A stretch of 54,501 nt of DNA from Clostridia bacterium BRH_c25 (GTDB lineage: Bacteria; Bacillota_A; Clostridia; Lutisporales; Lutisporaceae). The stretch is from positions 1 to 54,501 of the forward strand of contig LOES01000037.1 of assembly GCA_001515955.1 (NCBI GenBank). The letters are read 5' to 3'. A program made the translations under genes and the position numbers. The notes below the pieces were generated by a model. The model searched no databases. It was given only the letters and a program-made list of their open reading frames with translations, and was not told the origin of the DNA. Shown one piece after another: positions 105 through 44,775 of the stretch. Each line of letters starts with the position of its first letter. The first letter of the stretch is position 1.

Positions 105-141
105 TGCAGCACCCCATCGAGTAATTCAATGAGGTGCTGCA
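105..141 (+). terminator. hairpin downstream of panB
   Basis: A 9-bp perfect inverted repeat (TGCAGCACC at 105-113, GGTGCTGCA at 133-141) is followed on the plus strand by TTTTATAT. The T-run is on the plus side, so it fits a terminator for a plus-strand gene lying left of the window better than one for the panB operon, although the stem could serve both. Nothing else is recognisable in 1-152. Confidence 0.5.
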
Positions 142-152
142 TTTTATATCAA

Positions 153-1004
153 TTATTCAAATTCTTTAAACATCTTTTCAAAGTCCTCAATACTGTCCTT
201 AACATGATATACATGCTTATCCTCAGGGAATCTTTCATTCTTTACATCATCCACATATTCTTTAAATGCATTTGTAATTACTTCTGCAACATTGGCATAT
301 TTCTTAACAAATTTCGGTGTAAAGGCCTGGAACATGCCCAGCATATCGCCGCAAATAATCAATTGCCCGTCACAGGGAAGCCCTGCACCGATAGAATATA
401 CGGGAATACTTAATTTATTACTGATAAACCCTGTTAACTCCGGTGGTACAGCTTCTAATAATAATGCTCCCGCCCCTGCTTCCTGGATCTGAATAGCATC
501 TGCAATCAGTTCTCTGGCACTTGCAACGTCTCTTCCCTGTGCCTTAAATCCACCCTGCTGCCCTGAGCTCTGGGGTGTTAAGCCTATATGCCCGAATACA
601 ACTATTCCGGCATCGCTTATTGCCTTAATCCTGCTGAGTACTCTTCTGCCACCTTCCAGCTTTATTGCGTCCATATCTGCCTCTTTTAAAAAGCGGCAGG
701 CATTCACTACTGCATCTTCATCAGATACCTGATATGAACCGAAGGGCATATCACCTATGGTAAATGTATTTGGTGCACCTCTCCTTACTGCCTGACAGTG
801 TGAAATACAATCCTCCATTGTTACCGGAACAGTTCCCTGATAGCCCAATACTACCATTCCCAAGGAATCTCCAACAAGGATCATATCCAGGCCCGCTTGC
901 TCCGCAAACGAAGCCATGGGAAAATCATATGCTGTAATCCAGGATGCTTTCTCGCTCTTTTTTTTCATTTCTACCAAATCAAGAATTGTCTTTTTCTTTG
1001 CCAT
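153..1004 (-). CDS. panB: PanB-type ketopantoate hydroxymethyltransferase
   Basis: A 283-residue protein of the 3-methyl-2-oxobutanoate hydroxymethyltransferase family (PEP mutase/isocitrate lyase-type TIM barrel), of normal family length. The family moves a hydroxymethyl group from 5,10-methylene-tetrahydrofolate to a 2-keto acid. Expected active-site elements are present: GDSLGMVVLG (Asp), GDMPFGSY (Asp), IKLEGG (Lys/Glu), GHIGLTPQS, and the catalytic Glu in LEAVPPE. Start is set by an AGGAGAG site. It is the last gene of an operon, 11 bp after the BCCT gene, and there is no panC or panD nearby, which argues against a purely biosynthetic role. It could work on another keto acid or in the retro direction, feeding C1 units to folate. 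Family call is firm; physiological role is inferred. Confidence 0.85.
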   Translation of the reverse strand: MAKKKTILDLVEMKKKSEKASWITAYDFPMASFAEQAGLDMILVGDSLGMVVLGYQGTVPVTMEDCISHCQAVRRGAPNTFTIGDMPFGSYQVSDEDAVVNACRFLKEADMDAIKLEGGRRVLSRIKAISDAGIVVFGHIGLTPQSSGQQGGFKAQGRDVASARELIADAIQIQEAGAGALLLEAVPPELTGFISNKLSIPVYSIGAGLPCDGQLIICGDMLGMFQAFTPKFVKKYANVAEVITNAFKEYVDDVKNERFPEDKHVYHVKDSIEDFEKMFKEFE

Positions 1005-1015
1005 TTTGCTCTCTC

Positions 1016-2578
1016 CTATTTTCTAATATTATTTATCCATGCTTTATCCTGATTCATCATTTTTATTGCAGCATAAACTGTTATGAATTGAACAAACATG
1101 ATCGGGAAGCCCATGAGGCCTGAAACAACCTCCAGTGGAGCCAATCCCCCTATTCTCATAAGTAACAATGCAATAGCTGAAATCATAATGGCTGTAATAA
1201 GACGTACTTTTTGAGAAGGTTCGGATTTGCTCATGTCATCGGTACTTGCATAAGCTGCAATAGAATATGTCGTAGAATCAAGAGTTGTAATCAAGAAAAT
1301 CATTGTCAGTATGGTAAATATCGCCATGACAACATTAGGAATCGGCAGCGAGGCAAGGACTTCACCAATGGCGACCATTGATCCTCCGCCATTTTTCACA
1401 ATATCAATTACAGGAACAGCACCGCTTAAATATTGATGCATGCTGAGTCCTCCAAGAATACCTGTTGCCAGCCATGAAATCATCAATGGTGCAAAGAAAT
1501 AGGTCAGTATCATCTCTTTTATTGTTCTGCCCTTTGAAACTGTAGCTGCAAAGACACTGTGCAGCAGAGCCCATGTAGCGCAATAAGCAAACCAGAATAC
1601 CGTATATCTCTGAACTCCGTCTGCCGCTCCTGTTCTTAAAGAGTCACTATAAAATGAGATGTCTATGTAATTTTTAAAAAGGAATCCCAGACTGTCTGTG
1701 AAGTGGTTAAGTATGAATACCGATGGTCCTATCAGCATAATAAGTATGGCAAATGCACCTGCAAGATACATATTGAACACACTCAGATTTTTTATGCCTT
1801 TCTCTATACCCAGGTATGCACTGGCTGTAAAGCATATTATCCAGATGATAGTTATTATTAAAGTTAAAGTAAAGTTAACCTGCAAACCGAACATTTTAGA
1901 TAAAAGCGTTGTAACAATCGGTGTCCCCAGACCCAGAGTAACGGATGCACCTGCTACTATACTGACAAGGAATAGAATATCCAGGAACTTTCCACCCAAA
2001 CCATCGGTAAATTTATCTCCGAAAATACAACGGCATGCCTCAGATATTCTTAGCAGCGGCCTCTTTCGGACATGGAGTACATAGCCCATAGCCGGTGCCG
2101 ACATTACGAAAATTGCAAAGGTCTGCAGGCTCCAAAGAAACATACCGTAAGGATTTCCCCACATCAGTGCTTCTTTTGACAGGGGTTCAAGACCGAAGGG
2201 CGGATCTATGGCAACAGAAGCCCACTGCATCATTCCTGTACGCATAATGGTTGACCCAAGCCCCATTGCTATAAGGATAGAGGCATACTGGAACAAGCTG
2301 AATTGAGGTTTGTCATCCGGGTTGCCCAATACAACCTTTCCGTATTTGGAGTATGCAATAAAGAACCCTGCTCCGACAAGAATAATCGAGTACCAGATAT
2401 ACAGCCATCCGAAATTATCGACTATAACATCAAAAATACTATTGAGAAACGCTATTGATGAAGTCTCATTCATTGCAAAAGGTATACTGAAAGCAACAAG
2501 AACAATCAAAGATGGTATTAATATCTTATAGTCTATTAGAGTATTTTTTACTGAGTCATCCTTATTCAGTTTAAGCAT
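1016..2578 (-). CDS. BCCT family transporter
   Basis: A 520-residue membrane protein with about 12 hydrophobic segments, matching the betaine/carnitine/choline transporter family in length and layout (DYKILIPSL at the N-terminus, SVFAATVSKGRTIKEM after TM8). BCCT proteins take up or exchange quaternary ammonium and related zwitterionic solutes. The usual substrate-site motifs are altered: the glycine stretch reads GLGSTIMRTGMMQWA, and the aromatic YWAWW-type motif is replaced by VFWFAYCATWALL, keeping only some aromatics. The ligand may therefore differ from glycine betaine. The gene lies between the M24 gene (25 bp upstream) and panB, so it is probably the uptake system of this operon. Start is preceded by GGGGG. 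Confidence 0.88.
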   Translation of the reverse strand: MLKLNKDDSVKNTLIDYKILIPSLIVLVAFSIPFAMNETSSIAFLNSIFDVIVDNFGWLYIWYSIILVGAGFFIAYSKYGKVVLGNPDDKPQFSLFQYASILIAMGLGSTIMRTGMMQWASVAIDPPFGLEPLSKEALMWGNPYGMFLWSLQTFAIFVMSAPAMGYVLHVRKRPLLRISEACRCIFGDKFTDGLGGKFLDILFLVSIVAGASVTLGLGTPIVTTLLSKMFGLQVNFTLTLIITIIWIICFTASAYLGIEKGIKNLSVFNMYLAGAFAILIMLIGPSVFILNHFTDSLGFLFKNYIDISFYSDSLRTGAADGVQRYTVFWFAYCATWALLHSVFAATVSKGRTIKEMILTYFFAPLMISWLATGILGGLSMHQYLSGAVPVIDIVKNGGGSMVAIGEVLASLPIPNVVMAIFTILTMIFLITTLDSTTYSIAAYASTDDMSKSEPSQKVRLITAIMISAIALLLMRIGGLAPLEVVSGLMGFPIMFVQFITVYAAIKMMNQDKAWINNIRK

Positions 2579-2603
2579 TATTAATCCCCCTTTTTATTTT
2601 TTT

Positions 2604-3791
2604 CTACTTCGCCTTTGGCTCCATAGGAAAATCTATCAATACTTCACCGCGGTCCTTTCCGACAACAGAAGCATTTGTCACCAGATAATCACCTTTTCCA
2701 CTGCCGACCAGCCATGACAGGATATGGAACACCATACCTTCTTTGAGTACAAGATCACTGTAACGCCGCAGGCCGACCACCATGCTCCCGCCGACCCATC
2801 CGGGAGGGAATCCGATACCGACCATATAGCCGCAGTGATGGCGCGTATAATGTGAGAGTCCTGCCGCATCCACTACCTTCTGCCACTCTTCATATACATC
2901 GGCGGCTCTGTTGCCCTCTTTGAGGCTGCCGATCACCGAGTTAAAGGCGTCAATACATACCTTTGAAATCTCCATAGTACCTTTTGGCATATCTCCCAGG
3001 AAGAACATTCTGCCCATGGGAGCATGATAATGCTTGGCAGCTCCGCTCATCTCAATAAACAAGCGGTCTCCTTTTTCAAGCTTTCTGTCACTCCAGGTTA
3101 CATGCTCCATTCCCAGAGTTGGAGTGGAGCGGACAAAGGGCTGGAATCCCGGAGGGTCTCCCCCCGCAAGGCACATGGCCTTGTATATTTCAGCTGCAAT
3201 TTCATTTTCTCTTACACCTGCATCAAATGTGTTTGCAGCAGCTTCCATCATCTTTGTGGAAACCTTTGCAGCCTTCCTGACATACTCCATTTCAAAGGGA
3301 GACTTTACCGTTCTCAGCTTGTCTATCTCATCTGAAAAATCGTTCCATACAGCCTTATCAAGCCCGGAATAGATTCTCTGACTGTTTTCAAGAGGAGCAA
3401 ACATAGTTCGCTTCTCCATTCCCAGGCGGCCCTTATCCAGCCCCATCTCCTTGATTTCACGGACGACATGGTCTGCAGCGTTTTCATGATCCAAATATCC
3501 CACGAACTTGGCATTCTTCAGCATCGCTCCGACTGATACACTTTCCATCTGACGTATTACCAGACGCATTTCCTGTTCCTTCGGGACTACCAGTATGTGC
3601 GGAGCAAAGTAGCCGAAATGGTCAAGTCCGGTAAGGTAATAGATGTTTTCAGGGCTGGTTATAATGCAAGCATCCAGGCTGTTTTTCTCCATTGCTTTAC
3701 GAACATTCTCTACTCTTATACTTAGTTCACTAATTGGGAAAGGATTAACTCCACTCATTGGAAATGAATCAGGCTCGTAATCATTACTCAT
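2604..3791 (-). CDS. M24-family creatinase/ectoine-hydrolase-like enzyme
   Basis: A 395-residue protein with an N-terminal creatinase-type domain (about 1-165, with SPENIYYLTG at 46-55) and a pita-bread M24 domain (about 166-395). The five metal ligands of true M24 aminopeptidases are not retained: the Asp-Asp region reads EMSGAAKHYHAPMGR (E247, H256), and the last Glu position reads VTNASVV. Loss of metal ligands is typical of creatinase and ectoine hydrolase (DoeA), and HHCGYMVGIGFPPGW (318-332) resembles the GYxIGxGYPP segment of DoeA-type proteins. A C-N hydrolase on a cyclic amidine or guanidino compound is a better guess than a peptidase. The ATG at 3791 is preferred over the 36-nt longer frame because AGGAGG lies just upstream. 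Confidence 0.75.
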   Translation of the reverse strand: MSNDYEPDSFPMSGVNPFPISELSIRVENVRKAMEKNSLDACIITSPENIYYLTGLDHFGYFAPHILVVPKEQEMRLVIRQMESVSVGAMLKNAKFVGYLDHENAADHVVREIKEMGLDKGRLGMEKRTMFAPLENSQRIYSGLDKAVWNDFSDEIDKLRTVKSPFEMEYVRKAAKVSTKMMEAAANTFDAGVRENEIAAEIYKAMCLAGGDPPGFQPFVRSTPTLGMEHVTWSDRKLEKGDRLFIEMSGAAKHYHAPMGRMFFLGDMPKGTMEISKVCIDAFNSVIGSLKEGNRAADVYEEWQKVVDAAGLSHYTRHHCGYMVGIGFPPGWVGGSMVVGLRRYSDLVLKEGMVFHILSWLVGSGKGDYLVTNASVVGKDRGEVLIDFPMEPKAK

Positions 3792-3894
3792 TACTAATAA
3801 CACACCTCCTGTTTTGAATACCCTCACACAAGGTTATTTTTAATAGCTCTTAAATACACTCCCCCTTTTTAATATGAATTCCTGACTGTGTGAA

Positions 3895-5481
3895 TTATCC
3901 CAGGCACAACTCCTTTTCAACTCTTTTTGCAGACTTTGTTATGCATAATCCACCCAAGCCTGTGCATCTGAATTCTCTTGGCATTAATAGTCCGACATCC
4001 ATCATGGCCTTTATAGTTTCATCCAGTGGTATGAAGGGGTCAAAGCCATTCAGTACCATATTGGCAGAGAGAATTCCATTTACAGCTGCCATCGGGTTTC
4101 TGCCTACACAGGGTACATTCCCGACACCTGCTACAGGATCACATATAAGCCCGAGTATATTCTGTATTGCCAGGGAAGCAGCAGCAAATCCCTCTTCAAC
4201 ACTTCCACCCAGCAGCTGAACGATTCCTGCTGCCGACATACTGCCGGCGGCACCATTCTCCGCCTGACAGCCACATACCTCAGCTGCAAAAGTGGCTTGA
4301 TGGTCAATGAATACTCCAATAATTCCTGAAGCCAGCAGTGCTTTAGCCGTATCTTCATCTGATAGGCCCATCTGATCCCCAACAGCAACAATTGCACCCG
4401 GGAGAACCCCGCAAGAACCACCGGTGGGTGCTGCGACGACTTTTCCCCTGCAGATGTCATACTCCATGATACCGGTTGCCCATACCATCACCTTGTTCAA
4501 CATTCCCATATCTATCATTCTGGCATTCTCTTTTTTCATATTTCTGTCAATGGTCCCTGCTTTTGACGGCAAGAAGCCTCTCTTTTCAAAATTGCCTTCG
4601 ATTGCCTTCAATGCAGATTCTCTCATAACCCTTACAATGCGGGCCATCATTTCAACTATTTCATTCCTGCTTTTTCCACTGATTGCTTCTTCGTAATCAC
4701 ATGCCAGCTCCCAAAGAGTACTGTTTTTTGTTTTGTTATACTCCAACGCTTCTGCAGCATTCATGAAAGGTACTTTGTCTACTATTCTCTTTACTACGGG
4801 TAAAACAGGTTTTATGTGCTTTACGAGTATTACTCCCGGTAAATTCTTAAATTGTCCCAGAAGCTCATCAGATATTTCCGTATCTAATTTGATATCTATC
4901 AGGTACCTATTAATCTCTTGGCTTTTTTCTATTCTGGCTTCGAAATTTAAATTGGTCTTTCCAAGCAACATCTTTATTTCTTCCAAGGTTTCAGGCTCTT
5001 CTGTTATAACAAGGACATCAATACAATCACCTTTTAAGGATACTGGGAATGCACCATATTTCGTTATCTCAAACATTCCTCCACCGGTTGAAGCTGATTC
5101 TATACTTATTTTCCTGCCGCTTTTGCCTTTAAGGTTTATTCTGGCGAAATTGGGATGTATATCTCCTTCTATGCTTTCGATCTTAAAATCTACTTTTACG
5201 TTCTTTTCCTCTGCAGTTTTAAGAGACTGTTTAATTTTTTCATCAGATATGTCAATGCCTAATATGCCGCCCACAAACCCATAGTTGGAACCCTGAGCTA
5301 TATAGGTTGCAGCATATGATCCATTCCGGTCGAATTTGATTTCAATTTCTTCTACTTCGTCATCCAGCAGCATATTCGCTACTTTTCCTATACGTGCCGG
5401 CCCGGCGGTATGGGAGCTTGATGGTCCTATCATAATAGGGCCGAAAACCTCGTTGAAAATACTACATGGTTTTTTGTTCAC
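3895..5481 (-). CDS. single-chain Fe-S L-serine dehydratase with ACT-like domain
   Basis: A 528-residue protein fusing the beta and alpha parts of iron-sulfur L-serine ammonia-lyase (serine to pyruvate plus ammonia). Residues 1-140 form the beta domain with GPSSSHTAGP (19-28). Residues about 150-225 look like an ACT domain, as in the separate SdaAB subunit. The catalytic alpha part (about 245-528) carries APTGGSCGVLPG and candidate [4Fe-4S] ligands C405 (GCQAE), C447 (CDPVAG) and C458 (VPC). It is longer than E. coli SdaA (about 454), fitting the additional ACT region. A second, two-subunit enzyme is encoded at 13602-15278, so this copy probably serves the operon and may act on serine or another beta-hydroxy amino acid released by it. 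Confidence 0.88.
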   Translation of the reverse strand: MNKKPCSIFNEVFGPIMIGPSSSHTAGPARIGKVANMLLDDEVEEIEIKFDRNGSYAATYIAQGSNYGFVGGILGIDISDEKIKQSLKTAEEKNVKVDFKIESIEGDIHPNFARINLKGKSGRKISIESASTGGGMFEITKYGAFPVSLKGDCIDVLVITEEPETLEEIKMLLGKTNLNFEARIEKSQEINRYLIDIKLDTEISDELLGQFKNLPGVILVKHIKPVLPVVKRIVDKVPFMNAAEALEYNKTKNSTLWELACDYEEAISGKSRNEIVEMMARIVRVMRESALKAIEGNFEKRGFLPSKAGTIDRNMKKENARMIDMGMLNKVMVWATGIMEYDICRGKVVAAPTGGSCGVLPGAIVAVGDQMGLSDEDTAKALLASGIIGVFIDHQATFAAEVCGCQAENGAAGSMSAAGIVQLLGGSVEEGFAAASLAIQNILGLICDPVAGVGNVPCVGRNPMAAVNGILSANMVLNGFDPFIPLDETIKAMMDVGLLMPREFRCTGLGGLCITKSAKRVEKELCLG

Positions 5482-5526
5482 CTTATCCCACCCCTTATAT
5501 CAATTTTTTGTGAAATATCAGTGCCT

Positions 5527-6792
5527 TTACTGTTCGTATCCGCACCAGTCCAGTATGGTACATGCAATGATCTTGGTCGTCTCAATCAACTTTTCTACGT
5601 CCACATATTCATTTGCTTTATGGGCTGTCCCTCCGGGTCCCGGTCCAAATACTACCGCAGGTGTGTTCCCATATCTGATCAGGGCACCCGCATCGGTACC
5701 CCATGGGGTTCCAACTATATTGGGGTCATCATTTTTGACATACTTATAATTATCAGCTATTGTTTTTACCAAAGCATGTTCTTTATCAACACTGCCTGAA
5801 TTCAAGCAGAAGCCATACCATTCTATTTGCGGCATATGCTCTTTTAACCAACCGTCTTCCCTTGCAGCCCCATATACTGCATTTTCCAGTTCTCTCCGTG
5901 CTTCCGATATCTCCTCATCGGGAGAAAAGCTCATTCTTCCTTCTATAATTACTTCATCCGGCACGCTTGTGGGAAATATTCCGCCTTTTATTATTCCGAT
6001 ATTAACACTGAATGGAGCAGGATGATGCTTATACAGCTCATGCTTTATTTCTTTTATCCTTTTTGCCTCAAATTCATTAAGTTTTTGTACTATCATGCTT
6101 GCTTTGTTTATTGCATTTACGCCTAAATAGGAGGTTGCTCCATGGGCCGCCAAGCCCTTTATGATGATTCTGAACCACGTGACCCCCATTGAAACCGGGC
6201 ACAGCTGCATATCCGTCGGTTCGGGGACAATTGCTCCGTCGGCCTTGTAGCCTCTGCTGATTGCTGATAAGGTTCCTGCTCCTCCGGTTTCTTCCCCTAT
6301 CACACTTTCTATGATTACATCTCCATTAAGCTGTATCCCCGAATCCATGATTGCTTTTACCGCCATCACGTTGGCAATAATACCGCCCTTCATATCACAA
6401 GCCCCACGTCCGTATATTTTTCCATCTTCCAGTTTCCCGCTCCAGGGGCTGTCATTCCAGTCATTGTCTCCCCCAGGTACGACATCTATATGTCCATTTA
6501 AAAGGATAGACCTTCCACCGCCTTTTCCTTTTAATGTTCCTGCCACATTTGGGCTGCCCTTATAATCCTCCCTTGCTGCAAGAAAATCAGGGTTGATTTT
6601 CATATCCTCTGTTGACGGTTCCCACATATCCACATCAAAGGATAGCTTTTTAAGAATGCTTGAAAAATACATTTGTGCATCTTTTTCCTCTCCCAATACA
6701 CTTGGGTATCTTATGATTTCCTGCGTGTTTACAATAATTTCGTTTCTGTTCTTTTCTATCATTTTTAACACTTTATATTTTGCGTTATCCAT
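5527..6792 (-). CDS. M20-family amidohydrolase (ArgE/DapE/ACY1 type)
   Basis: A 421-residue zinc hydrolase of the M20 deacylase/dipeptidase family. Metal-site residues are all visible: HIDVV (H101, D103), GRGACDMKGG (D133), the catalytic Glu pair in GEETGG (E167/E168), the IVPEPTD Glu (E191) and a C-terminal GTAHKANEYV (H391). H217 in AAHGATS matches the dimerisation-domain His. The family removes acyl groups from N-acyl amino acids or splits dipeptides. Following an M24 hydrolase, the arrangement recalls ectoine breakdown, where DoeA opens the ring and DoeB deacetylates the product, though no other doe gene is here. The ATG at 6792 is preferred over the longer frame because AAGGAG lies 8 nt upstream. 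Confidence 0.85.
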   Translation of the reverse strand: MDNAKYKVLKMIEKNRNEIIVNTQEIIRYPSVLGEEKDAQMYFSSILKKLSFDVDMWEPSTEDMKINPDFLAAREDYKGSPNVAGTLKGKGGGRSILLNGHIDVVPGGDNDWNDSPWSGKLEDGKIYGRGACDMKGGIIANVMAVKAIMDSGIQLNGDVIIESVIGEETGGAGTLSAISRGYKADGAIVPEPTDMQLCPVSMGVTWFRIIIKGLAAHGATSYLGVNAINKASMIVQKLNEFEAKRIKEIKHELYKHHPAPFSVNIGIIKGGIFPTSVPDEVIIEGRMSFSPDEEISEARRELENAVYGAAREDGWLKEHMPQIEWYGFCLNSGSVDKEHALVKTIADNYKYVKNDDPNIVGTPWGTDAGALIRYGNTPAVVFGPGPGGTAHKANEYVDVEKLIETTKIIACTILDWCGYEQ

Positions 6793-6915
6793 GTCATTCA
6801 CTCCTTTTTTAATACTTGCTGCAGTCAACTTTATCATGCAGCCCTTTGGCCTTGCAACAAATTATTAAAGCAAAATTAAAGAGTTGATGAAATAACTCGA
6901 ACAAGTATTTAAAAG

Positions 6916-7854
6916 CTATGGTCTTGGAATTGAAAGGTCTTCTCTATAGTTGTTGAATACTGGTTGATATGGACTTCTGTCACACCACTCTTTTGCAATT
7001 GCTGCGAATCTCACTTTTTCTTTCACCAGGAAGTTAAGGTAGCTTGGATCTCTCCAGGAATTATATAATTCACTCTCACTCTTTCCAGGCTCAAACTTGA
7101 AGTAAACCGGGCCACATATTCTGGCAATCTCATCCGCTTCTATATTTCTTTGGTGGCCTCCCATGGAGTCAACTATACTCATATAAACATCCATTGGCAT
7201 ATCTACTACGCTTCTGATTGAAGCAAGCATTGCAAGGGATAAATCGGCCAGAGGGTTAAAGCTGTCTGCCCCCAGGTCTGACAGCAGTTTTGCCCCAACT
7301 GCATTAGCATGGCCGGCAAAAACTGACACCTTGAACTTAACCTCCTTAGGAATCACACCCTCTTTTCTCATTTGATCCACCAGATACAATAATCCCTCAT
7401 CACAAATCAAGAATCCTCTGATTCCTGCTTCTATACACCGGTCCAGCTCTTTAAGCCACATATATAAATTGTCCTGCCCTCTTATTCTCATTCCGGATAC
7501 ATATCCTTCAGACGTAGTATATTGCCTTCCCAGGTCCCACCCTCTGCTTGGCACCGGATTAAGCATTACTTCTATCTTGTTTTCCGCACCTATCTGAGCA
7601 TAATATTTTAGTTCCTCAAACTCCAAGAAAGCTGATCCACCAACAGTACCAATGATCCTGTGGATTGGCAGCTTCTTTTTTTCAGATTCTTTTATTAATA
7701 CTTCAAAGTTTTCTGCATTTTCTATTCCCGCAATCTCCATCCTGTAGTGTGCACCGCCCTCAAAGGTTACCTTGGAAGAAGGCAAATCGTGTCTGTCTTT
7801 TAACGGGAAATTTGTTTTCTCCGTTATGAATTTTTCAATATTCTGTATTGACAT
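6916..7854 (-). CDS. putative TIM-barrel protein resembling peptidase U32
   Basis: A 312-residue soluble protein, first gene of the operon. The pattern of short strands ending in Gly or Asp (RGFLICDEGLL, KFKVSVFAGHANAVGAKLLSDLGADSFNPLADLSLAML) suggests a TIM barrel of the type found in U32-family proteins. That assignment is by eye and weak. No Cys-rich Fe-S motif of U32 hydroxylases is visible. It could be a lyase, isomerase or aldolase acting on the imported compound. It is separated from the M20 gene by about 120 bp and preceded by a GGGGG ribosome site. The long intergenic region upstream carries IclR-type palindromes. Function unknown. Confidence 0.5.
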   Translation of the reverse strand: MSIQNIEKFITEKTNFPLKDRHDLPSSKVTFEGGAHYRMEIAGIENAENFEVLIKESEKKKLPIHRIIGTVGGSAFLEFEELKYYAQIGAENKIEVMLNPVPSRGWDLGRQYTTSEGYVSGMRIRGQDNLYMWLKELDRCIEAGIRGFLICDEGLLYLVDQMRKEGVIPKEVKFKVSVFAGHANAVGAKLLSDLGADSFNPLADLSLAMLASIRSVVDMPMDVYMSIVDSMGGHQRNIEADEIARICGPVYFKFEPGKSESELYNSWRDPSYLNFLVKEKVRFAAIAKEWCDRSPYQPVFNNYREDLSIPRP

Positions 7855-7980
7855 ATAAAAACCCCCATTTTTTAGTATTTAATACTTATATGTAAAACCT
7901 TAAGCTTTGCCAAGAGTTTAGAATGGCTAGAACAAATTTACCCCCTTTCGAATGTAATCGCTCCACAACCTTCCAACAAC

Positions 7981-8009
7981 ATTTTATAATATTCTGAAAA
8001 AAAAGGCAA
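7981..8009 (-). promoter_or_regulatory. candidate promoter of the U32-to-panB operon
   Basis: On the minus strand TTGCCT (8004-8009) and TAAAAT (7981-7986) are separated by 17 nt, giving a start about 120 nt before the first gene. A second candidate, TTGGCT (8151-8156) and TAGAAT (8127-8132) with an 18-nt spacer, lies between and partly inside the palindromes at 8116-8134 and 8157-8172. I cannot tell which is used. Otherwise 7855-8180 is AT-rich and without an ORF. Confidence 0.4.
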
Positions 8010-8115
8010 TATATTTTTCTATATTTAGCAACTACTTTCTATATATTAGATTTTATTAGTTTCATTCTTGGTTATAATGCAAATTCTCTTTAAATCCTTA
8101 CTGTGATCACACCAC

Positions 8116-8134
8116 AATAGAATATGATTCTATT
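8116..8134. promoter_or_regulatory. IclR-type operator palindrome 1
   Basis: A perfect dyad, AATAGAAT-ATG-ATTCTATT. The same half-site recurs at 8157-8172, 8231-8247 and 9069-9083, and all four surround the operon and the iclR gene. Binding by the neighbouring IclR protein is inferred. Confidence 0.55.
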
Positions 8135-8156
8135 TCGCTCTGCCAGATTCAGCCAA

Positions 8157-8172
8157 ATAGAACATTGTCTAT
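8157..8172. promoter_or_regulatory. IclR-type operator palindrome 2
   Basis: ATAGA-ACATTG-TCTAT, sharing the AATAGAA half-site with the palindrome centred about 40 bp away, roughly four helical turns. It abuts the -35 of the upstream candidate promoter. Confidence 0.45.
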
Positions 8173-8181
8173 TCAATGGAA

Positions 8182-8213
8182 CAAAAAACAGATTAAGCTT
8201 AACTTAATCTGTT
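8182..8213 (-). terminator. rho-independent terminator of iclR
   Basis: Read on the minus strand: an 11-bp perfect stem (AACAGATTAAG / CTTAATCTGTT, 8187-8197 with 8203-8213) and a 5-nt loop, followed by TTTTTTG. It lies 31 bp after the iclR stop codon. Confidence 0.8.
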
Positions 8214-8230
8214 CAGTAATATTCATCATT

Positions 8231-8247
8231 ATAGAATTTTGTTCTAT
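8231..8247. promoter_or_regulatory. IclR-type palindrome 3 at the iclR 3' end
   Basis: ATAGAA-TTTTG-TTCTAT overlaps the last codons and stop of iclR. It has the same half-site as the promoter-proximal palindromes and may be an auxiliary site. Confidence 0.35.
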
Positions 8248-9056
8248 CCCTCTATTAGTTCGTTATTATATCCCAAGTAAGTAGATAATGCACTGCTTGC
8301 CATCTCCAAATCCTTTTTAATATTCATTATTTTCGTGAAGTTCAAGCGCATACTGGGGCCACTTACACTAATAGCTGCTATAACCTCATTTTTATAGTTT
8401 CTGACAGGCATAGCAATACACGATAATCCGGGGTAATACTCCTGGTCATCTATACTATAACCCTGCTCCTTTACTTTTCCCAATTGGGCAATTAAATCCT
8501 CCAATGAAGTAATGGTATTAGGCGTGCAGCTTTCCAGCCGGCCATCTCCAAATATTTTAATCAACTCTTCCCTATCCAGCTCTGAAATAATCGCTTTCCC
8601 CATAGCAGTAGCATGTAACGGCTCCCGTGTTCCGATGGGAACATTGGCTACCAGTGTTGATTTGGGATCTATTCTGGAAATGATAACAACATTGTTATCC
8701 ACTCTGACTCCTAAATTTACTGTCTCCTCATATTTATTGCAAAGATTTTGAAGCACGTCCTTATTCAGGTTGGATAAATTCCTTTGCTGGGGAATATTAT
8801 TGCCTATCTCAAAGAACTTCCAGCTCAAACGGTACTTTGTGCTTTCAGAACACTTTTCAACATAGTTGTAAGCCATAAGTGTGTCTAATATTCTATGTAT
8901 TGTACTCTTTCCAATACCTAGTATACTGTCTAACTCACTTATCCCCAATCCTACCCCCTCTTTGTGCATAACCTCGATTATTTCCAGTGCTTTCTCAAGT
9001 GTTTGTACCGGATATTTGGGTTTGTGAGTCTCAAGTGCCTTTCCCAACAATATCAT
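8244..9056 (-). CDS. IclR family transcriptional regulator
   Basis: A 270-residue regulator. The N-terminal winged helix-turn-helix (about 15-80) includes VQTLEKALEIIEVM and LDSILGIGKSTIHRILDTL. The effector domain (about 90-265) has the family signature ATAMGKAII and, near the C-terminus, PGLSCIAMPVRNYKNEVIAAISVSG. Family members typically bind a small catabolite and repress or activate a nearby pathway. The gene lies directly upstream of the operon on the same strand but is cut off from it by its own terminator. It has its own promoter with a palindrome in the leader, so autoregulation and control of the adjacent operon are likely. Start ATG is 8 nt after AAAGG. Confidence 0.92.
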   Translation of the reverse strand: MILLGKALETHKPKYPVQTLEKALEIIEVMHKEGVGLGISELDSILGIGKSTIHRILDTLMAYNYVEKCSESTKYRLSWKFFEIGNNIPQQRNLSNLNKDVLQNLCNKYEETVNLGVRVDNNVVIISRIDPKSTLVANVPIGTREPLHATAMGKAIISELDREELIKIFGDGRLESCTPNTITSLEDLIAQLGKVKEQGYSIDDQEYYPGLSCIAMPVRNYKNEVIAAISVSGPSMRLNFTKIMNIKKDLEMASSALSTYLGYNNELIEG

Positions 9057-9068
9057 TCTCCCATCCTT

Positions 9069-9083
9069 TTCTATATACTAGAA
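9069..9083. promoter_or_regulatory. palindrome in the iclR leader
   Basis: TTCTA-TATAC-TAGAA lies between the candidate iclR promoter and its start codon. Its half-site matches those at 8116-8247, consistent with autoregulation. Confidence 0.45.
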
Positions 9084-9105
9084 TATCATTTTCATTAATA
9101 ATAAC

Positions 9106-9133
9106 ATTATAGCATATTAAATTCAACACTCAA
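9106..9133 (-). promoter_or_regulatory. candidate iclR promoter
   Basis: On the minus strand TTGAGT (9128-9133), a 16-nt spacer and a perfect TATAAT (9106-9111), with a transcript start expected near 9099. The rest of 9057-9193 shows nothing else clear. Confidence 0.5.
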
Positions 9134-9193
9134 TATCGAATCCGGGGTCTTCATACCCGGCAAATATCCTCAAGCTTCTTTTCTCTTACAGCA

Positions 9194-12100
9194 TTAATTC
9201 AAGCTGTAGATATCTGAGAACTCTAAATGTATTTTTTCTACATTGACATTGTTCTGTGGTTTGTTTTCTTCTTTTATAAGAACATCACTCTCAAGCACGG
9301 TTTTTACCGGAATTTCTATTATAAACTCTGTCCCTTTACCATGCTCACTCTGAACGCAAATACTTCCTCCATGCATTTCCACTATGGATTTAACCAGGGA
9401 AAGTCCTATACCACTACCTTCCTGGGCCCTGTTGAGAGACTTATCTACTTGCCTGAACCGATCAAAGATTATATCCAGCTTTTCCTCGGGAATACCTATA
9501 CCAGTGTCCTTTACAGATATAATAATCCTTTCTCCCTTGTCAAACATGCTGACATTTATACTACCGCCCTCATTGGTAAATTTGACGGCATTTGACAGGA
9601 GATTCAGTACAATTCGTTCAATATTGTCCGGATCACAGGCAATTACTTTCTCTTCCACATCGGTATCAAATATCAAATCAATGGATTTTGCCTTAATGAA
9701 TTCTGATACCGATAATGTAATATTTTCTACTATGTTCACTATGTTGTGATTTTGCATCTTGACTTCAAAAAACCCTGAATCAATTTTTGTGATATCAATT
9801 AAATTGTTTATAAGCCTCAACTGCCTGAAACAATTCTGCTTCATTATGCCCGTGTACTTTTTGATGCTATTGTCTATTCCATTTTTGGAATTGCTTTTCA
9901 TCATGGATTCCAGGAATTGCAGAGTGCTCATTATAACATTCAGTGGGGTACGAAGCTCATGGGACAGGTTGCTGAAAAAGTCATTTTTCATGCCGTCAAA
10001 TACCTTTGCTTGCTCTAAAAGCCTTTTAGTCCGTGCATTATCCTCCTGAAGCTGCTCCGACAGCTTCCTGAAGGTGATATCTCTCAAAATCACAAGCTGT
10101 GCATTTTCTCCCTCGAAGCAAATAGGCATGGCCATAATTTCAACATAAATTACAGAGCCGTCGGCACGGATTATCTTATCCTCCATTGGTATTGCTCCGT
10201 TGTCTTGATTCTGCAGATATTGCTCCTGCATGTTAATAAGTTGTGATTCGTTTATATCCAGGTACTTCCCTATAGGCTTTCCCATAAGATGCTCAACACT
10301 TTTTGCCTGAAGTAAATTTAAGCCTTCAGCATTTGAAAATTGTATAATATCTTCTTTTAGAATGAAAACAGCAAAGGGTGATAATTCTACCAGCTTCTCA
10401 TAGCGGTCCCTGCTCTTCTGTAAATTTTCCTCAGCTTCCTTGCGTGCCGTAATATCAATAAAAGAGATTACCACACCTTTGATAATATTTTCATTTGTAC
10501 GATATGGAGCATATTTCAGCAAATACCACTTATTAGTTGTACTCTGCACCTCGTGTTCAAAAGGTACAAGAGTGCTCATCACATTCCTTGCCTGCTCGGT
10601 CAGATGCTCATTTTTCAAGTTGCATGAAATATGGTTTATCGGACGGCCGATATCCGACTCTATAAGGTTCACTTCCCCGGTTACTGCCGGTGTGAATTTC
10701 CTCACACACAGGTTTGAATCAAGGAATATAGTACCTATTGTCGTGCTGTTTAAAAAGTTCGTCATATCGTTGTTCACCTCTGCCAGTTCCTGTATCTTAT
10801 ACTGATATTGGGTGTTCACAACGATTAGTTCCTGATTGACGGATTGAAGCTCTTCATTTGTGCTGTGCAGTTCTTCATTGGAAACCAACAGCTCTTCATT
10901 AGCAGATTGTATTTCTTCGCTTGAGGTTTCGATTTCCTCAATGGATGTTTGAAGGCTCTCTTTCGTATACTGAAGCTCTTGCTCAAGGTCTGTTATACGC
11001 TCGTGCAATTTGCCTACAGTATCATAATTCTCGATATAATCTCCCTGGGAGACACTGCTTCTGATTTCTTCGAACAGCACAAGAGCTAATGTACCATTCT
11101 TTTTGGTAAGCAGAGGCTTGACAACCAGGTTGATATTGACAACCTCTTCCCCAAGCTTGACTTTGATATTTGTATAGGTAACTGTCTTTTTCTCTTTTTT
11201 CACCTTGTTTAATGCAGTTCCCAGAGCTGTAGACAGTTCCTTCGGGACCATTTTTTGAATGTCATAATAGGCCCTTCCTCTCGGGACCTTTAAAAATTTA
11301 TCGGCATCACCACAAACCTGCACCAGCTCACCATTCTCATCAACTACAACACTGGGCGGCAGACATTCCTCTATCAGCTTTGCACAAATATCATCCATTT
11401 CCCAACTATTCCTTACCCTATGTGTAAAATAATCATCAGCCCTTTTTTGTGGAACTACCTTCATTCCTGTAGATATAATGGAAACGTCATCTATCAGTGG
11501 ACGTTTTTTAGTCTCTCTGCACTTAAAAATCTTCCATTTTGCATCCACTGTTGAAAAATAGCTGCCAAGCTCGCCTGTTGTTTCGCTGGTGCCTAAGAAC
11601 ATAAAGCCATTGGTTTCAAGTGCAAACTGGAACGTTGACAGAATTCTGGTCTGAAGCACCGGTTGAAAGTAAATCAACAGATTTCTGCAGCTTAAAAGGT
11701 CTATCTTAAAAAACGGCGGATTGCTTATCAAATTGTGGAAAGAAAAAATGACCATTTCACGGATGGTTTTTGATATCTGATAACCGTCTTTCTTCTTTAT
11801 AAAATAACGGTTCAATCTTTCAAGGGATACATCACAGAAGATACTGTCGGGATAAAACCCTTCACTTGCGTATTCAATCGCATTATTGTCAATATCGGTA
11901 GCAAATATTTTTATATTTATATTCTTATGAGTAATGTCCATATATTCCTTAAATAATATTGCCAGTGAATATGCCTCTTCACCCGTTGAGCATCCTGCGA
12001 CCCAAATCCTGATAGTAGACTTGTCCGGCTTGCCGGTGAATATTTCGGGAATAATTTTATTTCTGATAACATTAAATGCCTCTTCATCCCTGAAGAACCT

Positions 12101-13006
12101 TGTTACTCCTATCAGTAAGCTATTGTATAAACGTTCTACTTCCTCGGGATTATCCCTTAATAGCTCAAGATATATATCCGGGTCTTGTATTTGATTTATC
12201 CTCATACGTCTGTCTATGCAACGCAAAACCGTACTCTGCTTATAAAGGTTAAAATCGATTGAATACCGCTTCTTTATGATATCGTATATGGTCATTAATG
12301 TATCCGGGCTTTCATCCTCTTTGGGTTTCTCAATAGCCTTTGTATCTATTAATGAAGGTTGTCCCGTATACTTCCGCAATTCATCAGGCATGAACTGCGG
12401 AGCCATTATATAGTCGCAAATATTCGTTGCTATTACACTTTTAGGCATACCGTTGAATTTAGCCGTCATCTCGTCCTGTGCCACTACAATGCCGCCAGCT
12501 TCTTTTATAGCCCTGCATCCACGGGTACCGTCACTCCCTGTACCTGAAAGTATGATAGCTATGGATTTCTCACCTGCGTTTATTGCAAGGGACTCTAAGA
12601 AGGTGTCTATTGCAAGGTTGATCCTCTGAATCGGCTCCTGGTCACTGAGTAAGAACTGTCCTTCCGAAATGACTACATTATACTTGGGAGGATTCAGATA
12701 AATGCATCCCGGGTTAATCTGCATTCCGTTCTGTATCTGATATACCTTCATTTTAGTATGCTTTGACAAGAGTTCAGGCATAAAGCTTTTATAATCCGGA
12801 GACAGATGCTGGATTACAACAAATGTCAAATTATCAGCCAGTGGCATATTTGCAAAAAATTGTTCAAGAGCTTCAAGCCCTCCGGCAGAAGCCCCCATAC
12901 CCACAATATAGAAATTATTTATCTGCTTGTTAGAGATTGACGATTCATTTTCTTCTATTCCAGCCTTTGCGCTTTTCCCCTCATCACATTCATTCTTCTT
13001 ATTCAT
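9194..13006 (-). CDS. CheB-CheR-PAS hybrid sensor histidine kinase
   Basis: A 1270-residue multidomain protein. Order: CheB methylesterase without receiver (about 30-220; GMGASAGGLEALEQFF with catalytic Ser, VVIQHLSPD, LSGTGSDGTRG), CheR methyltransferase (about 240-500; WVAGCSTGEEAYSLA, LLSCRNLLIYF), a long coiled coil (SSEEIQSANEELLVSNEEL), two PAS domains, HisKA with the phospho-accepting His in FFSNLSHELRTPL, and HATPase_c with GIGIPEEKLD and GSGIGLSLVKSIVEMHGG. There are no membrane segments, so it is cytoplasmic. It contains no receiver and no response regulator or chemotaxis gene lies near, so its partner is elsewhere. CheB-CheR-kinase fusions are known but their signals are mostly not. 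Start is preceded by AGGGGG. Confidence 0.9.
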   Translation of the reverse strand: MNKKNECDEGKSAKAGIEENESSISNKQINNFYIVGMGASAGGLEALEQFFANMPLADNLTFVVIQHLSPDYKSFMPELLSKHTKMKVYQIQNGMQINPGCIYLNPPKYNVVISEGQFLLSDQEPIQRINLAIDTFLESLAINAGEKSIAIILSGTGSDGTRGCRAIKEAGGIVVAQDEMTAKFNGMPKSVIATNICDYIMAPQFMPDELRKYTGQPSLIDTKAIEKPKEDESPDTLMTIYDIIKKRYSIDFNLYKQSTVLRCIDRRMRINQIQDPDIYLELLRDNPEEVERLYNSLLIGVTRFFRDEEAFNVIRNKIIPEIFTGKPDKSTIRIWVAGCSTGEEAYSLAILFKEYMDITHKNINIKIFATDIDNNAIEYASEGFYPDSIFCDVSLERLNRYFIKKKDGYQISKTIREMVIFSFHNLISNPPFFKIDLLSCRNLLIYFQPVLQTRILSTFQFALETNGFMFLGTSETTGELGSYFSTVDAKWKIFKCRETKKRPLIDDVSIISTGMKVVPQKRADDYFTHRVRNSWEMDDICAKLIEECLPPSVVVDENGELVQVCGDADKFLKVPRGRAYYDIQKMVPKELSTALGTALNKVKKEKKTVTYTNIKVKLGEEVVNINLVVKPLLTKKNGTLALVLFEEIRSSVSQGDYIENYDTVGKLHERITDLEQELQYTKESLQTSIEEIETSSEEIQSANEELLVSNEELHSTNEELQSVNQELIVVNTQYQYKIQELAEVNNDMTNFLNSTTIGTIFLDSNLCVRKFTPAVTGEVNLIESDIGRPINHISCNLKNEHLTEQARNVMSTLVPFEHEVQSTTNKWYLLKYAPYRTNENIIKGVVISFIDITARKEAEENLQKSRDRYEKLVELSPFAVFILKEDIIQFSNAEGLNLLQAKSVEHLMGKPIGKYLDINESQLINMQEQYLQNQDNGAIPMEDKIIRADGSVIYVEIMAMPICFEGENAQLVILRDITFRKLSEQLQEDNARTKRLLEQAKVFDGMKNDFFSNLSHELRTPLNVIMSTLQFLESMMKSNSKNGIDNSIKKYTGIMKQNCFRQLRLINNLIDITKIDSGFFEVKMQNHNIVNIVENITLSVSEFIKAKSIDLIFDTDVEEKVIACDPDNIERIVLNLLSNAVKFTNEGGSINVSMFDKGERIIISVKDTGIGIPEEKLDIIFDRFRQVDKSLNRAQEGSGIGLSLVKSIVEMHGGSICVQSEHGKGTEFIIEIPVKTVLESDVLIKEENKPQNNVNVEKIHLEFSDIYSLN

Positions 13007-13601: not shown

Positions 13602-14486
13602 TTAATTTTTACCGAAAATACGCTCATGGATCTGCTTTCCCGTGGGTGTTGATGCCAAGCCTCCGGTGCCGGTCTCTCTAAGCTCGCAAGGAAGGGATCT
13701 TCCCACCTTCAGCATGGCTTCCACCACTTCGTCAAAAGGAATGATGCTTGTGATGCCTGCCAATGCCAAATCTGCAGAGATAAGAGCATTCGCCGTCCCA
13801 ATGGCATTTCTCTTGATGCAGGGTGCCTCAACCAGTCCTGCAATGGGATCGCACACCAAGCCCAGAACGTTCTTTATGGCCATTGCTGCCGCATCCAAAG
13901 CCTGTGCAGGTGTTCCTCCCAGCATCTCGACAATGGCCGCTGCCGCCATTGCCGCCGCTGCGCCGGTTTCTGCCTGGCAGCCTCCTTCAGCACCCGCAAC
14001 AGTAGCGTTTCTGGTAATCAAATACCCCACGGCCGCCGCTGTAAATAAGGCATTGACTATATCCCCGTCATTTTTTCCAAACCGCTCGGCCGTTGTTATG
14101 ATCGACCCCGGCAAAATTCCGCTGGATCCGGCTGTCGGTGCCGCAACAATCTGCCCCATGGCGGCATTGACCTCCAGTACAGCCATGGCAGCCGCTACTG
14201 CCTTGTTCATATCCTGTCCGGCAACCGTCCGGTCTTTTTCATAATAATGTCTGAGCTTTTTTGCATCTCCTCCGGTCAAACCGCTAACGGAACGGATGTC
14301 TTCAGTCAAGCCTCTTTCTACAGCTTTCTTCATGACCTCCAGGTTTTTCTTCATTTCATTTATGATCAGATCCTTATTCCTCTGGGATACATGAACCTCT
14401 CGTACCAGCATCATTTCAAATATCCTGACATTGCTCTTATTGCATATACTCAAGAGCTCCGAACCACTTGTAAAGTTTATACTCAT
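13602..14486 (-). CDS. sdaAA: L-serine dehydratase, Fe-S dependent, alpha subunit
   Basis: A 294-residue catalytic subunit of the two-component L-serine ammonia-lyase. It carries APTAGSSGILPG and candidate [4Fe-4S] ligands C170 (GGCQAE), C212 (CDPIAG) and C223 (APC), with a conserved TGTGGLASTPTG end. It works with SdaAB, encoded just upstream, to turn serine into pyruvate and ammonia. Unlike most sdaAB-sdaAA pairs the two genes are 123 bp apart, with a strong terminator-like hairpin between them. The ATG at 14486 is preferred over a GTG six bases upstream because GAGG is 9 nt before it. Confidence 0.93.
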   Translation of the reverse strand: MSINFTSGSELLSICNKSNVRIFEMMLVREVHVSQRNKDLIINEMKKNLEVMKKAVERGLTEDIRSVSGLTGGDAKKLRHYYEKDRTVAGQDMNKAVAAAMAVLEVNAAMGQIVAAPTAGSSGILPGSIITTAERFGKNDGDIVNALFTAAAVGYLITRNATVAGAEGGCQAETGAAAAMAAAAIVEMLGGTPAQALDAAAMAIKNVLGLVCDPIAGLVEAPCIKRNAIGTANALISADLALAGITSIIPFDEVVEAMLKVGRSLPCELRETGTGGLASTPTGKQIHERIFGKN

Positions 14487-14563
14487 CTGCACCTTCCTCT
14501 TTCCCTATAACGAGTAGGGGCATATATTCCACATTAATTTGTCATGCCCCGTCAACGAGTTTC

Positions 14564-14611
14564 AAAAAAGGCTTCCTTGACTGTTAAAACGCTTTAATGG
14601 AAGCCTTTTTT
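14564..14611 (-). terminator. bidirectional terminator-like hairpin between sdaAB and sdaAA
   Basis: A 13-bp perfect inverted repeat, AAAAAAGGCTTCC (14564-14576) and GGAAGCCTTTTTT (14599-14611), around a 22-nt loop that holds a smaller dyad (TTAAAACGCTTTAA). It overlaps the sdaAB stop codon and has six T on the minus strand. In this position it should reduce read-through from sdaAB into sdaAA. Confidence 0.8.
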
Positions 14612-15278
14612 ATAATGCTTCTATTAGATATACATCTTGAATTTCATCACCTAAAGCCCTGACCTGGGCAATAGCTTTTTTTGAAATATCATTGTCGGTT
14701 TCAATAATCATGAAGGCATCCTGGCCCTTAGTCTGTCTGAAAACCCGCATGAATGCTATATTGATATTGAATTGAACCATAAGACTGGTCACTTCTGCTA
14801 TAACCCCCGGCCGGTCAATATGACGGATAACCAGAGTAGGATACTCACCGGTAAACTCTACATTCAATCCGTTAATCTGTATCACCCGGATATTGCCGCC
14901 CCCGATGGAGCAGCCCACCACTTCCGTTCTCTTGCCGCCGCTGCCGGTTATCAGCATTTTTACAGTATTGGGATGAGGCGGGTCGGCATCATCAACTACA
15001 AATTCATAGTCCAAACCTGAAGCCCTGGCATAGTCCAAGGATTTGCCAAGATTGGGGTCATCAGGCTCCATGTCCATTATCCCTGCCAATAACGCCCGAT
15101 CGGTGCCATGACCCTTGTAAGTCTTGGCAAAAGAACCGTAAAGCACAAAGGTAACCCTTTTCACATCATTTCCACTTATTCTTCTTGCTACCTTTCCCAG
15201 TCTGGCCGCTCCGGCGGTGTGGGAGCTTGAGGGCCCGACCATCCTCGGCCCGATAATATCAAATACGCTATAATCCAT
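14610..15278 (-). CDS. sdaAB: L-serine dehydratase, Fe-S dependent, beta subunit
   Basis: A 222-residue regulatory subunit with the N-terminal signature GPRMVGPSSSHTAGAARLGK (residues 10-29) and a C-terminal ACT domain (about 148-222; YPTLVIRHIDRPGVIAEVTSLM). In family members with an ACT domain, this part regulates the catalytic subunit. Length is normal. It precedes sdaAA on the same strand, and AAGGAG gives a clear start. It is transcribed away from the sugar ABC operon across a 499-bp intergenic region. Confidence 0.93.
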   Translation of the reverse strand: MDYSVFDIIGPRMVGPSSSHTAGAARLGKVARRISGNDVKRVTFVLYGSFAKTYKGHGTDRALLAGIMDMEPDDPNLGKSLDYARASGLDYEFVVDDADPPHPNTVKMLITGSGGKRTEVVGCSIGGGNIRVIQINGLNVEFTGEYPTLVIRHIDRPGVIAEVTSLMVQFNINIAFMRVFRQTKGQDAFMIIETDNDISKKAIAQVRALGDEIQDVYLIEAL

Positions 15279-32832: not shown

Positions 32833-32847
32833 GAACTCCTCCATTCC

Positions 32848-32887
32848 TCAAGAGTGTGAGAATAATCATCACTCTTTCCACTCTTGA
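32848..32887 (-). other. stem-loop between nagB and nagA
   Basis: TCAAGAGTG (32848-32856) and CACTCTTGA (32879-32887) form a 9-bp stem around 22 nt, ending a few bases before the nagA ribosome binding site. It has no T-run and may mark RNA processing or modulate nagA translation. Confidence 0.45.
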
Positions 32888-32926
32888 AATTTCGACTTTC
32901 TGTTCTCACTGAAGCTCATAATTGCA

Positions 32927-33691: not shown

Positions 33692-33711
33692 ATAAATCTC
33701 TCCTCAATTAA

Positions 33712-34942: not shown

Positions 34943-34945
34943 AAA

Positions 34946-36229: not shown

Positions 36230-36247
36230 ATAACCTCCTAAAATGAC

Positions 36248-36294
36248 TGTACCCCTTGTTAAAAACAGCTGTACCTATTAATAACAAGGGTACA
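36248..36294 (-). other. intercistronic hairpin after dctP
   Basis: TGTACCCCTTGTTA (36248-36261) and TAACAAGGGTACA (36282-36294) pair over 13 bp with one bulged base. It lies between dctP and dctM with no T-run, and probably stabilises the dctP message. Confidence 0.6.
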
Positions 36295-36321
36295 GGAATC
36301 GGTAGTCTGGATTCACTTTAA

Positions 36322-37377: not shown

Positions 37378-37420
37378 TAAAATTCCCCCAATTCCTTATT
37401 TTATTTGATTTTTATATGGA

Positions 37421-42045: not shown

Positions 42046-42061
42046 AAATTCACCTCATTTC

Positions 42062-43468: not shown

Positions 43469-43609
43469 ATTCCAATCTCCTCATAGAAATTTTTTTCCTG
43501 CTATACAACTCCGCAGCATTATGATTTCCTGATATAAAGTGGGCTTACTTCCCAGCCCTGGTGTCAGCCCATATAATAAGTCTGAGGTTATATTATCATG
43601 TTATTTGAT

Positions 43610-44683: not shown

Positions 44684-44775
44684 TTTTATCAAAGCCCCCT
44701 AACAATATTATTGATTTTTACTTTCTTTCTTTTATTTTTTTAAGTATATACTTCAACCCATATCCGAGAAAACTG

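Follow-up and report, generated by a model that had tools for sequence, protein, structure and literature searches.

The contig LOES01000037.1 of Clostridia bacterium BRH_c25 (assembly GCA_001515955.1), analysed over positions 1 to 54,501 and here called the window, carries an operon in which PanB is paired with U32L, a TIM-barrel protein of a family without a name. The operon is real, and the U32L–PanB pair is separable from pantothenate synthesis. Behind a gene for an IclR-family regulator, it encodes U32L, an M20 deacylase, a fused iron–sulfur (Fe-S) L-serine-dehydratase-like protein (SDH), an M24 creatinase-fold hydrolase, a BCCT transporter and PanB. The best reading, which we hold at about even odds, is a folate-linked catabolic role, that is, the breakdown of an ectoine/hydroxyectoine-type solute. 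Gene content, the conserved pairing, co-localization of ectoine and one-carbon (C1) genes in relatives, a common palindrome, the PanB clade and independence from PanC were observed directly; every reaction, substrate and regulator–site link given below is proposed.

We counted genes by tblastn, because longest-open-reading-frame gene calling missed U32L and PanB in high-GC loci. U32L was found in 20 of 393 genomes of the order, 13 of them close (69–88% identity) and 7 distant (32–36%, excluded from the counts of 13), and in 19 of 398 genomes of a phylum sample at E 1e-60. Together the 13 close order genomes and 18 from the phylum sample make up the 31 U32L genomes considered here. The reference relative is Geosporobacter ferrireducens (G001), a complete chromosome whose U32L and PanB are 88% and 93% identical to the window proteins. 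PanB lies on the same strand within 3.5 kb of U32L in 12 of the 13 close order loci; in the thirteenth (G001) the two genes share a cluster, some 9 kb apart. It also stands beside U32L in 18 of the 22 phylum loci, counted without G001, at 31–170 bp in 16 and at 2–3 kb in two (L115, L116). The pairing is far above chance and strongly conserved.

At E 0.001, U32L matched neither a Pfam nor an NCBIfam model, peptidase U32 models included, and had 396 homologues; the few organisms named among the 120 homologues listed belonged mainly to Clostridia or other Bacillota, the exceptions being one Spirochaetes and one Deferrisoma. Across 36 aligned homologues, mean column identity was 70%. The structure is predicted to be a TIM barrel (pLDDT 86.9), about equally close to the U32 protein 5d88, class II aldolases, CutC and RuBisCO-like proteins. 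The name U32-like, given in an earlier sequence-only reading of this DNA, therefore reflects no more than a resemblance of the predicted fold, one that other TIM barrels share, and not the sequence family: U32L differs from the U32 peptidases in having no Pfam U32 match, in being equally near other barrels and in having one invariant Cys only. The fold look-alikes (CutC, RuBisCO-like proteins, class II aldolases) yielded no function and were dropped as a guide. Most of the distant U32L loci (L042–L045, L075–L077) carry phosphonopyruvate-decarboxylase-, HpcH-lyase- or tartrate-dehydratase-like genes, labelled by eye.

The window's PanB matches the equivalog TIGR00222 and keeps intact the D-S, D, K-E, H and E motif residues, which we take to be catalytic. 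In a tree of 56 rows, which includes the G001 protein twice (one copy shortened), it falls within a clade of 26 rows (support 100/97), while a further 10 rows, which have a PTI motif, form a separate clade; the 26 rows are precisely those bearing PVYSIGAG or PIYSIGAG. Twenty-nine rows are U32L-adjacent, 19 in the 26-row clade and 10 outside it with other motifs, and none of the 10 PTI rows is among them. PVYSIGAG is no marker of U32L pairing, as 19 of the 29 U32L-adjacent rows have the motif and 6 rows have it with no U32L near. The window's PanB thus resembles canonical pantothenate PanB in catalytic motifs and equivalog score and differs from it in its separate clade, its PVYSIGAG and its lack of a tie to PanC. 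PanC was present in 12 of the 31 U32L genomes (7 of 13 and 5 of 18), all 12 of which also carry a PanB away from U32L. The other 19 had no PanC, and all 19 have a U32L-linked PanB (a contig-end fragment in G644, about 9 kb from U32L in G001); many of the 31 genomes are drafts in which single absences are weak evidence. Archaeal PPS was found in none of the 31 and in four archaeal controls, and an archaeal-type pantothenate route in the PanC-less genomes was dropped. We used adjacency and PanC presence as criteria because bit score failed as a mark of the biosynthetic type in G042, whose high-scoring second PanB lies in a LarA–IlvD cluster. In this setting PanB very probably does not serve pantothenate synthesis.

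Around U32L, the 13 order genomes carry IclR (13/13), a GDH-like protein (12/13), an M20 amidohydrolase (12/13), DoeA (11/13) and, in at least 5 of 13, EutB; several loci end at contig or examined-stretch edges. In the GDH-like protein, the position equivalent to Ser380 is Cys in 21 of 21, which we count in favour of the reading. Folate C1 genes occur at the cluster in 5 of the 13. Upstream of PanB, G003 and G007 have Fhs, FchA and FolD together, G019 has Fhs with FolD, and G002 has FolD along with three short stretches resembling the ligase (Fhs); in G042, Fhs and FolD lie at the opposite cluster end. Phylum loci L102–L108 and L113 show the same theme, whole or in part. We take the names EutB, DoeA and M20 amidohydrolase as best matches of putative function, because scores fall mostly below curated cut-offs; EutB of G001 reaches 416.9 bits against 413 for NF005680, and a second EutB model was missed by EutB of both G001 and G002.

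G001 has two neighbouring blocks, M20-SDH-BCCT-DoeA-IclR-PanB and IclR-RidA-EutB-DoeA-TRAP-M20-U32L, and by gene content the two appear to be differently built counterparts, slot for slot. The window has the BCCT/M24/M20/SDH version together with U32L and PanB. Wide conservation of the full six-gene set, named in the sequence-only reading as a check on its idea, was not found: it recurs in G001 only, reordered and with a different M24, and what proved to co-occur across genomes is the U32L–PanB pair. A close fused SDH was present in 16 of the 393 order genomes at E 1e-100, 82% identical in G001 and 37–48% in the rest. Neither U32L nor PanB was found in the stretches examined around eight fused-SDH loci (G027 and G059 have a close PanB at another locus), and the fused SDH was dropped as a widespread core of the system.

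Three copies of a palindrome, one of them imperfect, lie in the gap between iclR and the U32L gene (Table 1). Perfect matches to its consensus, TAGAAYNNNRTTCTA, numbered 10 across the 585 kb of cluster loci, and every one lies upstream of a U32L, panB, Fhs or RidA gene at a distance of at most 400 bp. They include the sites before Fhs in G003 and before RidA-EutB-DoeA in G001, the latter downstream of an IclR 84% identical to the window's. Perfect sites expected by chance from shuffles or Markov sequence were 0.0–0.3; with one mismatch, 10 sites were found, 8 of them at the same kind of upstream position, against 8–9 expected. Control loci (604 kb) had one perfect and seven one-mismatch sites. 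The consensus was built on the window plus the earliest cluster loci, which were part of the set scanned, so the site count is not independent of it. At up to one mismatch the palindrome occurs in 11 of the 12 order genomes with upstream DNA. The twelfth, G019, has two sites at two mismatches only, and G058 stands outside the count, as its piece (L003) starts at panB. L102 was the only scanned phylum locus with the palindrome at up to one mismatch. We infer that IclR binds at the TAGAAYNNNRTTCTA palindromes, where it would sense the solute or an early product.

All seven open reading frames lie on the minus strand, iclR first and then the six-gene block spanning 7854–153, in which the gaps are 78, 45, 67, 25 and 11 bp; the six same-strand genes with short gaps of the sequence-only reading are thus borne out, as are by profiles all its family names other than U32-like (IclR, M20, fused SDH, M24, BCCT, PanB). 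Between iclR and the U32L gene lie 389 bp. iclR probably forms a transcript of its own, apart from the operon, because a terminator-like hairpin with a T-run directly follows it in this gap; over the whole terminator scan, hairpin and T-run sites were no commoner than in shuffled sequence.

Table 1 Features of the operon and its surroundings in the window
Feature	Position	Strand	Basis
Hairpin 3' of panB, no T-run, putative terminator at most	106..140	-	Read by eye; absent from terminator scan list
PanB, PVYSIGAG clade	153..1004	-	TIGR00222 321.9 bits, cut-off 207.55
BCCT transporter	1016..2578	-	PF02028 410.6 bits
M24 creatinase-fold hydrolase, active site resembling EutD/DoeA	2604..3827	-	PF00557 + PF01321
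Fused beta-alpha Fe-S L-serine-dehydratase-like protein (SDH)	3895..5481	-	PF03313 + PF03315
M20 deacylase, ArgE/DapE type	5527..6837	-	PF01546 + PF07687; NF005373 511.9 bits, cut-off 428
U32L, TIM-barrel protein, family without a name, PanB partner	6916..7854	-	No Pfam/NCBIfam match
Perfect palindrome ATAGAAT-ATG-ATTCTAT, proposed IclR operator	8117..8133	.	0 mismatches to TAGAAYNNNRTTCTA
Palindrome copy three, imperfect AATAGAACATTGTCTATT	8156..8173	.	Motif scan
Terminator-like hairpin 3' of iclR	8186..8214	-	13-pair stem + T-run
Palindrome copy two, overlaps iclR end	8231..8247	.	Motif scan
IclR-family regulator	8244..9056	-	PF01614 + PF09339; upstream of operon, gene apart

Following this gene content, BCCT would import a zwitterionic ectoine/hydroxyectoine-type solute, the EutD/DoeA-like M24 would open it and M20 would strip the acyl group; our prediction for the beta-hydroxy amino acid left over is 3-hydroxy-2,4-diaminobutanoate. 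This would be deaminated to 4-amino-2-oxobutanoate by the Fe-S dehydratase, which occupies the slot of the relatives' pyridoxal-phosphate-dependent EutB. U32L would then supply the substrate of PanB; the favoured idea is that it replaces the 4-amino group by a hydroxyl, so that 4-hydroxy-2-oxobutanoate (HOB) results. PanB would work opposite to its textbook direction, converting HOB and tetrahydrofolate (THF) to pyruvate and 5,10-methylene-THF with C4 moved to THF, and FolD, FchA and Fhs would oxidize the C1 unit to formate with a gain of ATP. We regard the direction of PanB toward methylene-THF as likely and an ectoine-type substrate for the window operon as slightly favoured, whereas HOB as the substrate of PanB falls a little short of an even chance and the amino-to-hydroxy step of U32L is doubtful. 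The sequence-only reading had sketched a similar hydrolysis, deacylation, dehydratase and PanB sequence for a hydroxyectoine-like solute; the sketch fits the relatives' clusters and the common palindrome, and its PanB step stays a proposal as to direction and substrate.

The window proteins match their roles unevenly. By predicted structure and by sequence, M24 is nearest EutD, ahead of creatinase and prolidase; it has the EutD-type fold, and its YHAPMGR (YHAPMSR in DoeA), presumably the location of the metal ligands, has EutD/DoeA-type residues at the ligand places. SDH has both the alpha and the beta domain, and the Cys residues of its GCQ, CDP and PC motifs, which we take to be the Fe-S cluster ligands, align with the solved LSD 4rqo; it misses the curated L-serine ammonia-lyase cut-offs (191.8 against 345.1 and 207.4 against 243.2 bits). 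BCCT passes PF02028 and stays under the TIGR00842 cut-off (326.9 against 407.55 bits). The best family of M20 is NF005373, of the ArgE/DapE type; DoeB2, whose cut-off is 550 bits, was not among the best 25 of 51 families, the last of which scored 73.8 bits, and no EutE- or DoeB2-type deacetylase was found in the operon. Pfam and NCBIfam profiles identified no transaminase or semialdehyde dehydrogenase among the six genes, in agreement with the earlier remark that the aminotransferase and dehydrogenase of the ectoine route are missing.

Several findings, in this and the next two paragraphs, weigh against the breakdown of an ectoine-type solute by this route. M24 misses both DoeA cut-offs (224 against 575 and 174.1 against 613 bits), is only 26–30% identical to DoeA of the relatives' clusters, and belongs to a large subfamily without a name; its identity to proteins from Anaerolineales and Thermodesulfobacteriota is about 51%. 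The low identity to the cluster DoeA leaves an ectoine-type compound as no more than a candidate substrate of M24. A U32L (P0052) and an M24 homologue of 80% (P0124) are assigned the same longest contig of 272171 bases, a weak hint that we did not count. The DoeA/DoeB parallel drawn in the sequence-only reading finds more support in the relatives, whose U32L/PanB clusters carry EutD/DoeA, EutB and M20, than in the window's own M24 and M20. Among the relatives, EutB of G002 is just under its cut-off (411.0 against 413 bits), DoeA reaches 431–503 of 613 bits, and M20 scores 399.6 of 500 for CpsA and 282–286 of 550 for DoeB2, passing the cut-off of a broad amidohydrolase model only. EutB, GDH-like and folate C1 genes were not found in the window operon. 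The palindrome at up to one mismatch was missing from phylum loci L101, L103–L107, L109 and L113 and from the M20-SDH-BCCT block of G001, and at three mismatches the window holds 10 palindromes against 6.8 expected, which is no enrichment. The alternative is that another solute is degraded, for example an N-acyl amino acid or a carnitine- or creatine-like compound, with the U32L–PanB end alone common to the ectoine clusters. The distance of M24 from the cluster DoeA argues for it, as do the window's BCCT and ArgE/DapE-type M20 where relatives carry TRAP and an M20 amidohydrolase; the EutD-like structure and YHAPMGR stretch of M24, the closer DoeA (431 bits to TIGR02993) of the M20-SDH-BCCT block in G001, and the palindrome shared between the window and the EutB-DoeA operon of G001 speak against it. 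We consider it improbable, though the strongest of the alternatives.

The amino-to-hydroxy idea for U32L is likewise weakened, because divergent U32L (41–47%) is paired with PanB at L111, L112 and L115–L120 with no visible amine pathway; L115–L120 contradict a confinement of U32L to amine settings, and the step is kept at low odds. No PanB was found within the DNA stretches examined around U32L at L101, L102, L109 and L110. SHMT was found in all 31 U32L genomes, so U32L–PanB as an SHMT substitute was dropped. A somewhat less probable alternative has PanB act directly on 4-amino-2-oxobutanoate, transferring the aminomethyl group to THF with release of ammonia, and gives U32L another role such as keto acid hydration or isomerization. 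It would account for U32L beside PanB where no amine chemistry is visible (L115–L120) and for the altered motif of the PanB clade; a hydroxy acid is, however, the likely substrate at IlvD- and aminotransferase-linked loci, and no U32L was found in the L066–L068 and L192–L197 stretches. As a separate observation, the U32L–PanB pairs at L111, L112 and L117–L120 belong to genomes without PanC and have no catabolic neighbours visible in the stretch examined.

A close PanB occurs in 19 of the 393 order genomes at E 1e-110, 13 with U32L and 6 without; these six, three of which have PanC, also count against the proposal. Four of them have PVYSIGAG and G101 (61% identical) has PVYGIGAG; a motif of this type was not found in the PanB of G027, a gene with an internal stop. 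Neighbours of the six are IclR in four, and a FolT-family ECF component, a formate/nitrite transporter and an aminotransferase in two each, with none of these at G046; a folate-family or formate transporter or an aminotransferase thus stands beside PanB in four of six, and this company counts in favour of the proposal. Further PanB loci of U32L genomes have IlvD (L066, L067), in the order IlvD-Fhs-FchA-FolD-PanB at the second PanB locus of G058 (L067). Judged from neighbouring genes, a common thread appears to be a source of 2-oxo acid on one side and folate/formate genes on the other. At L192, a 420-aa protein without Pfam or NCBIfam match (8605–9867) adjoins a PanB 88% identical to the window's.

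PanB catalyses a reversible reaction, and acetogenic anaerobes can use Fhs and FolD to make methylene-THF. PanB might therefore be synthetic, adding formate-derived folate C1 units to a 2-oxo acid for use of the product by U32L; the accompanying hydrolases, ammonia-lyases and uptake systems, together with the formate/nitrite transporters at other loci, suggest breakdown instead (a formate transporter could import too), and we judge synthesis quite unlikely. Most remote is housekeeping, with PanB serving pantothenate or clustering with folate genes through a folate-cleaving side activity: it agrees with the equivalog match, the kept motifs and the PanB–folK clustering reported in the accessible part of PMC4814558, and conflicts with the absence of PanC from 19 and of PPS from all 31 genomes, single absences in drafts being weak, and with the other PanB of the 12 PanC genomes.

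Elsewhere in the window lie a second, two-subunit Fe-S L-serine dehydratase at 13602–15278 (alpha subunit 368.1 against 243.2 bits, beta subunit labelled by eye) and, directly upstream of iclR, a 1270-aa protein (9194–13006) with a CheB-like N-terminus and a PAS/histidine-kinase C-terminus. An amino-sugar-like cluster at 31654–38458 has NagA/NagB-like genes, a TRAP transporter, a LacI-type regulator (labels by eye) and a sugar isomerase domain protein. At 40765–45795, a putative nickel-dependent hexonate epimerase (LarA kin), a phosphogluconate dehydrogenase, a sugar kinase and PdxA likely form a sugar-acid cluster.

Compared with the EutABCDE/DoeABCD systems, as set out in the accessible parts of PMC13188858 and of PMC5924519 (the earlier EutABC proposal), the window shares zwitterion uptake, an EutD-fold hydrolase, a deacylase and a slot for a beta-hydroxy amino acid dehydratase. 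It differs in having no transaminase or semialdehyde dehydrogenase toward aspartate, an Fe-S dehydratase, the U32L and PanB end, and IclR rather than EnuR. Section 8 of PMC13188858 describes putative ectoine clusters in Bacillota and in Thermodesulfobacteriota, those of Thermodesulfobacteriota mostly having two EutD and lacking EutE/Ssd. The resemblance to the clusters here is that Gram-positive and anaerobic bacteria have EutD/EutB, in some cases accompanied by BCCT or an amidohydrolase. Its main text has no mention of panB, ketopantoate, U32 or tetrahydrofolate, and its accessible part states that ectoine consumption by Gram-positive bacteria is not yet demonstrated, a further point on the opposing side. 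Among the matches listed in a literature search whose coverage left most subscription journals outside, and as far as their accessible parts go, no paper tied PanB or U32 to ectoine breakdown. In their accessible parts, PMC4814558 and PMC10949508 treat PanB as folate-cleaving or biosynthetic, and PMC8224422 gives an aldolase variant of HOB chemistry. The accessible part of PMC6966089 describes an engineered Escherichia coli pathway (Bouzon 2017) in which PanB cleaves HOB and passes the C1 unit to folate, and terms HOB non-natural; the HOB cleavage is alike, but that pathway is synthetic, whereas our proposal concerns a natural PanB clade that has a signature of its own.

Tentatively, these loci may represent a natural HOB:tetrahydrofolate hydroxymethyltransferase pathway in anaerobes, in which a dedicated PanB clade would turn C4 keto acids into pyruvate and folate-bound C1, drawing these acids from ectoines with the help of the new enzyme family U32L, from sugar acids through IlvD and from amino acids through an aminotransferase. 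Annotation routinely assigns PanB to vitamin B5 synthesis, and if the proposal is true, genomes with this clade may have been misread as partial pantothenate makers. A fermentative ectoine route would become testable, and the U32L family would gain its first context. The clade would also offer natural enzymes for a one-carbon route so far built by engineers, a natural counterpart of the engineered pathway.

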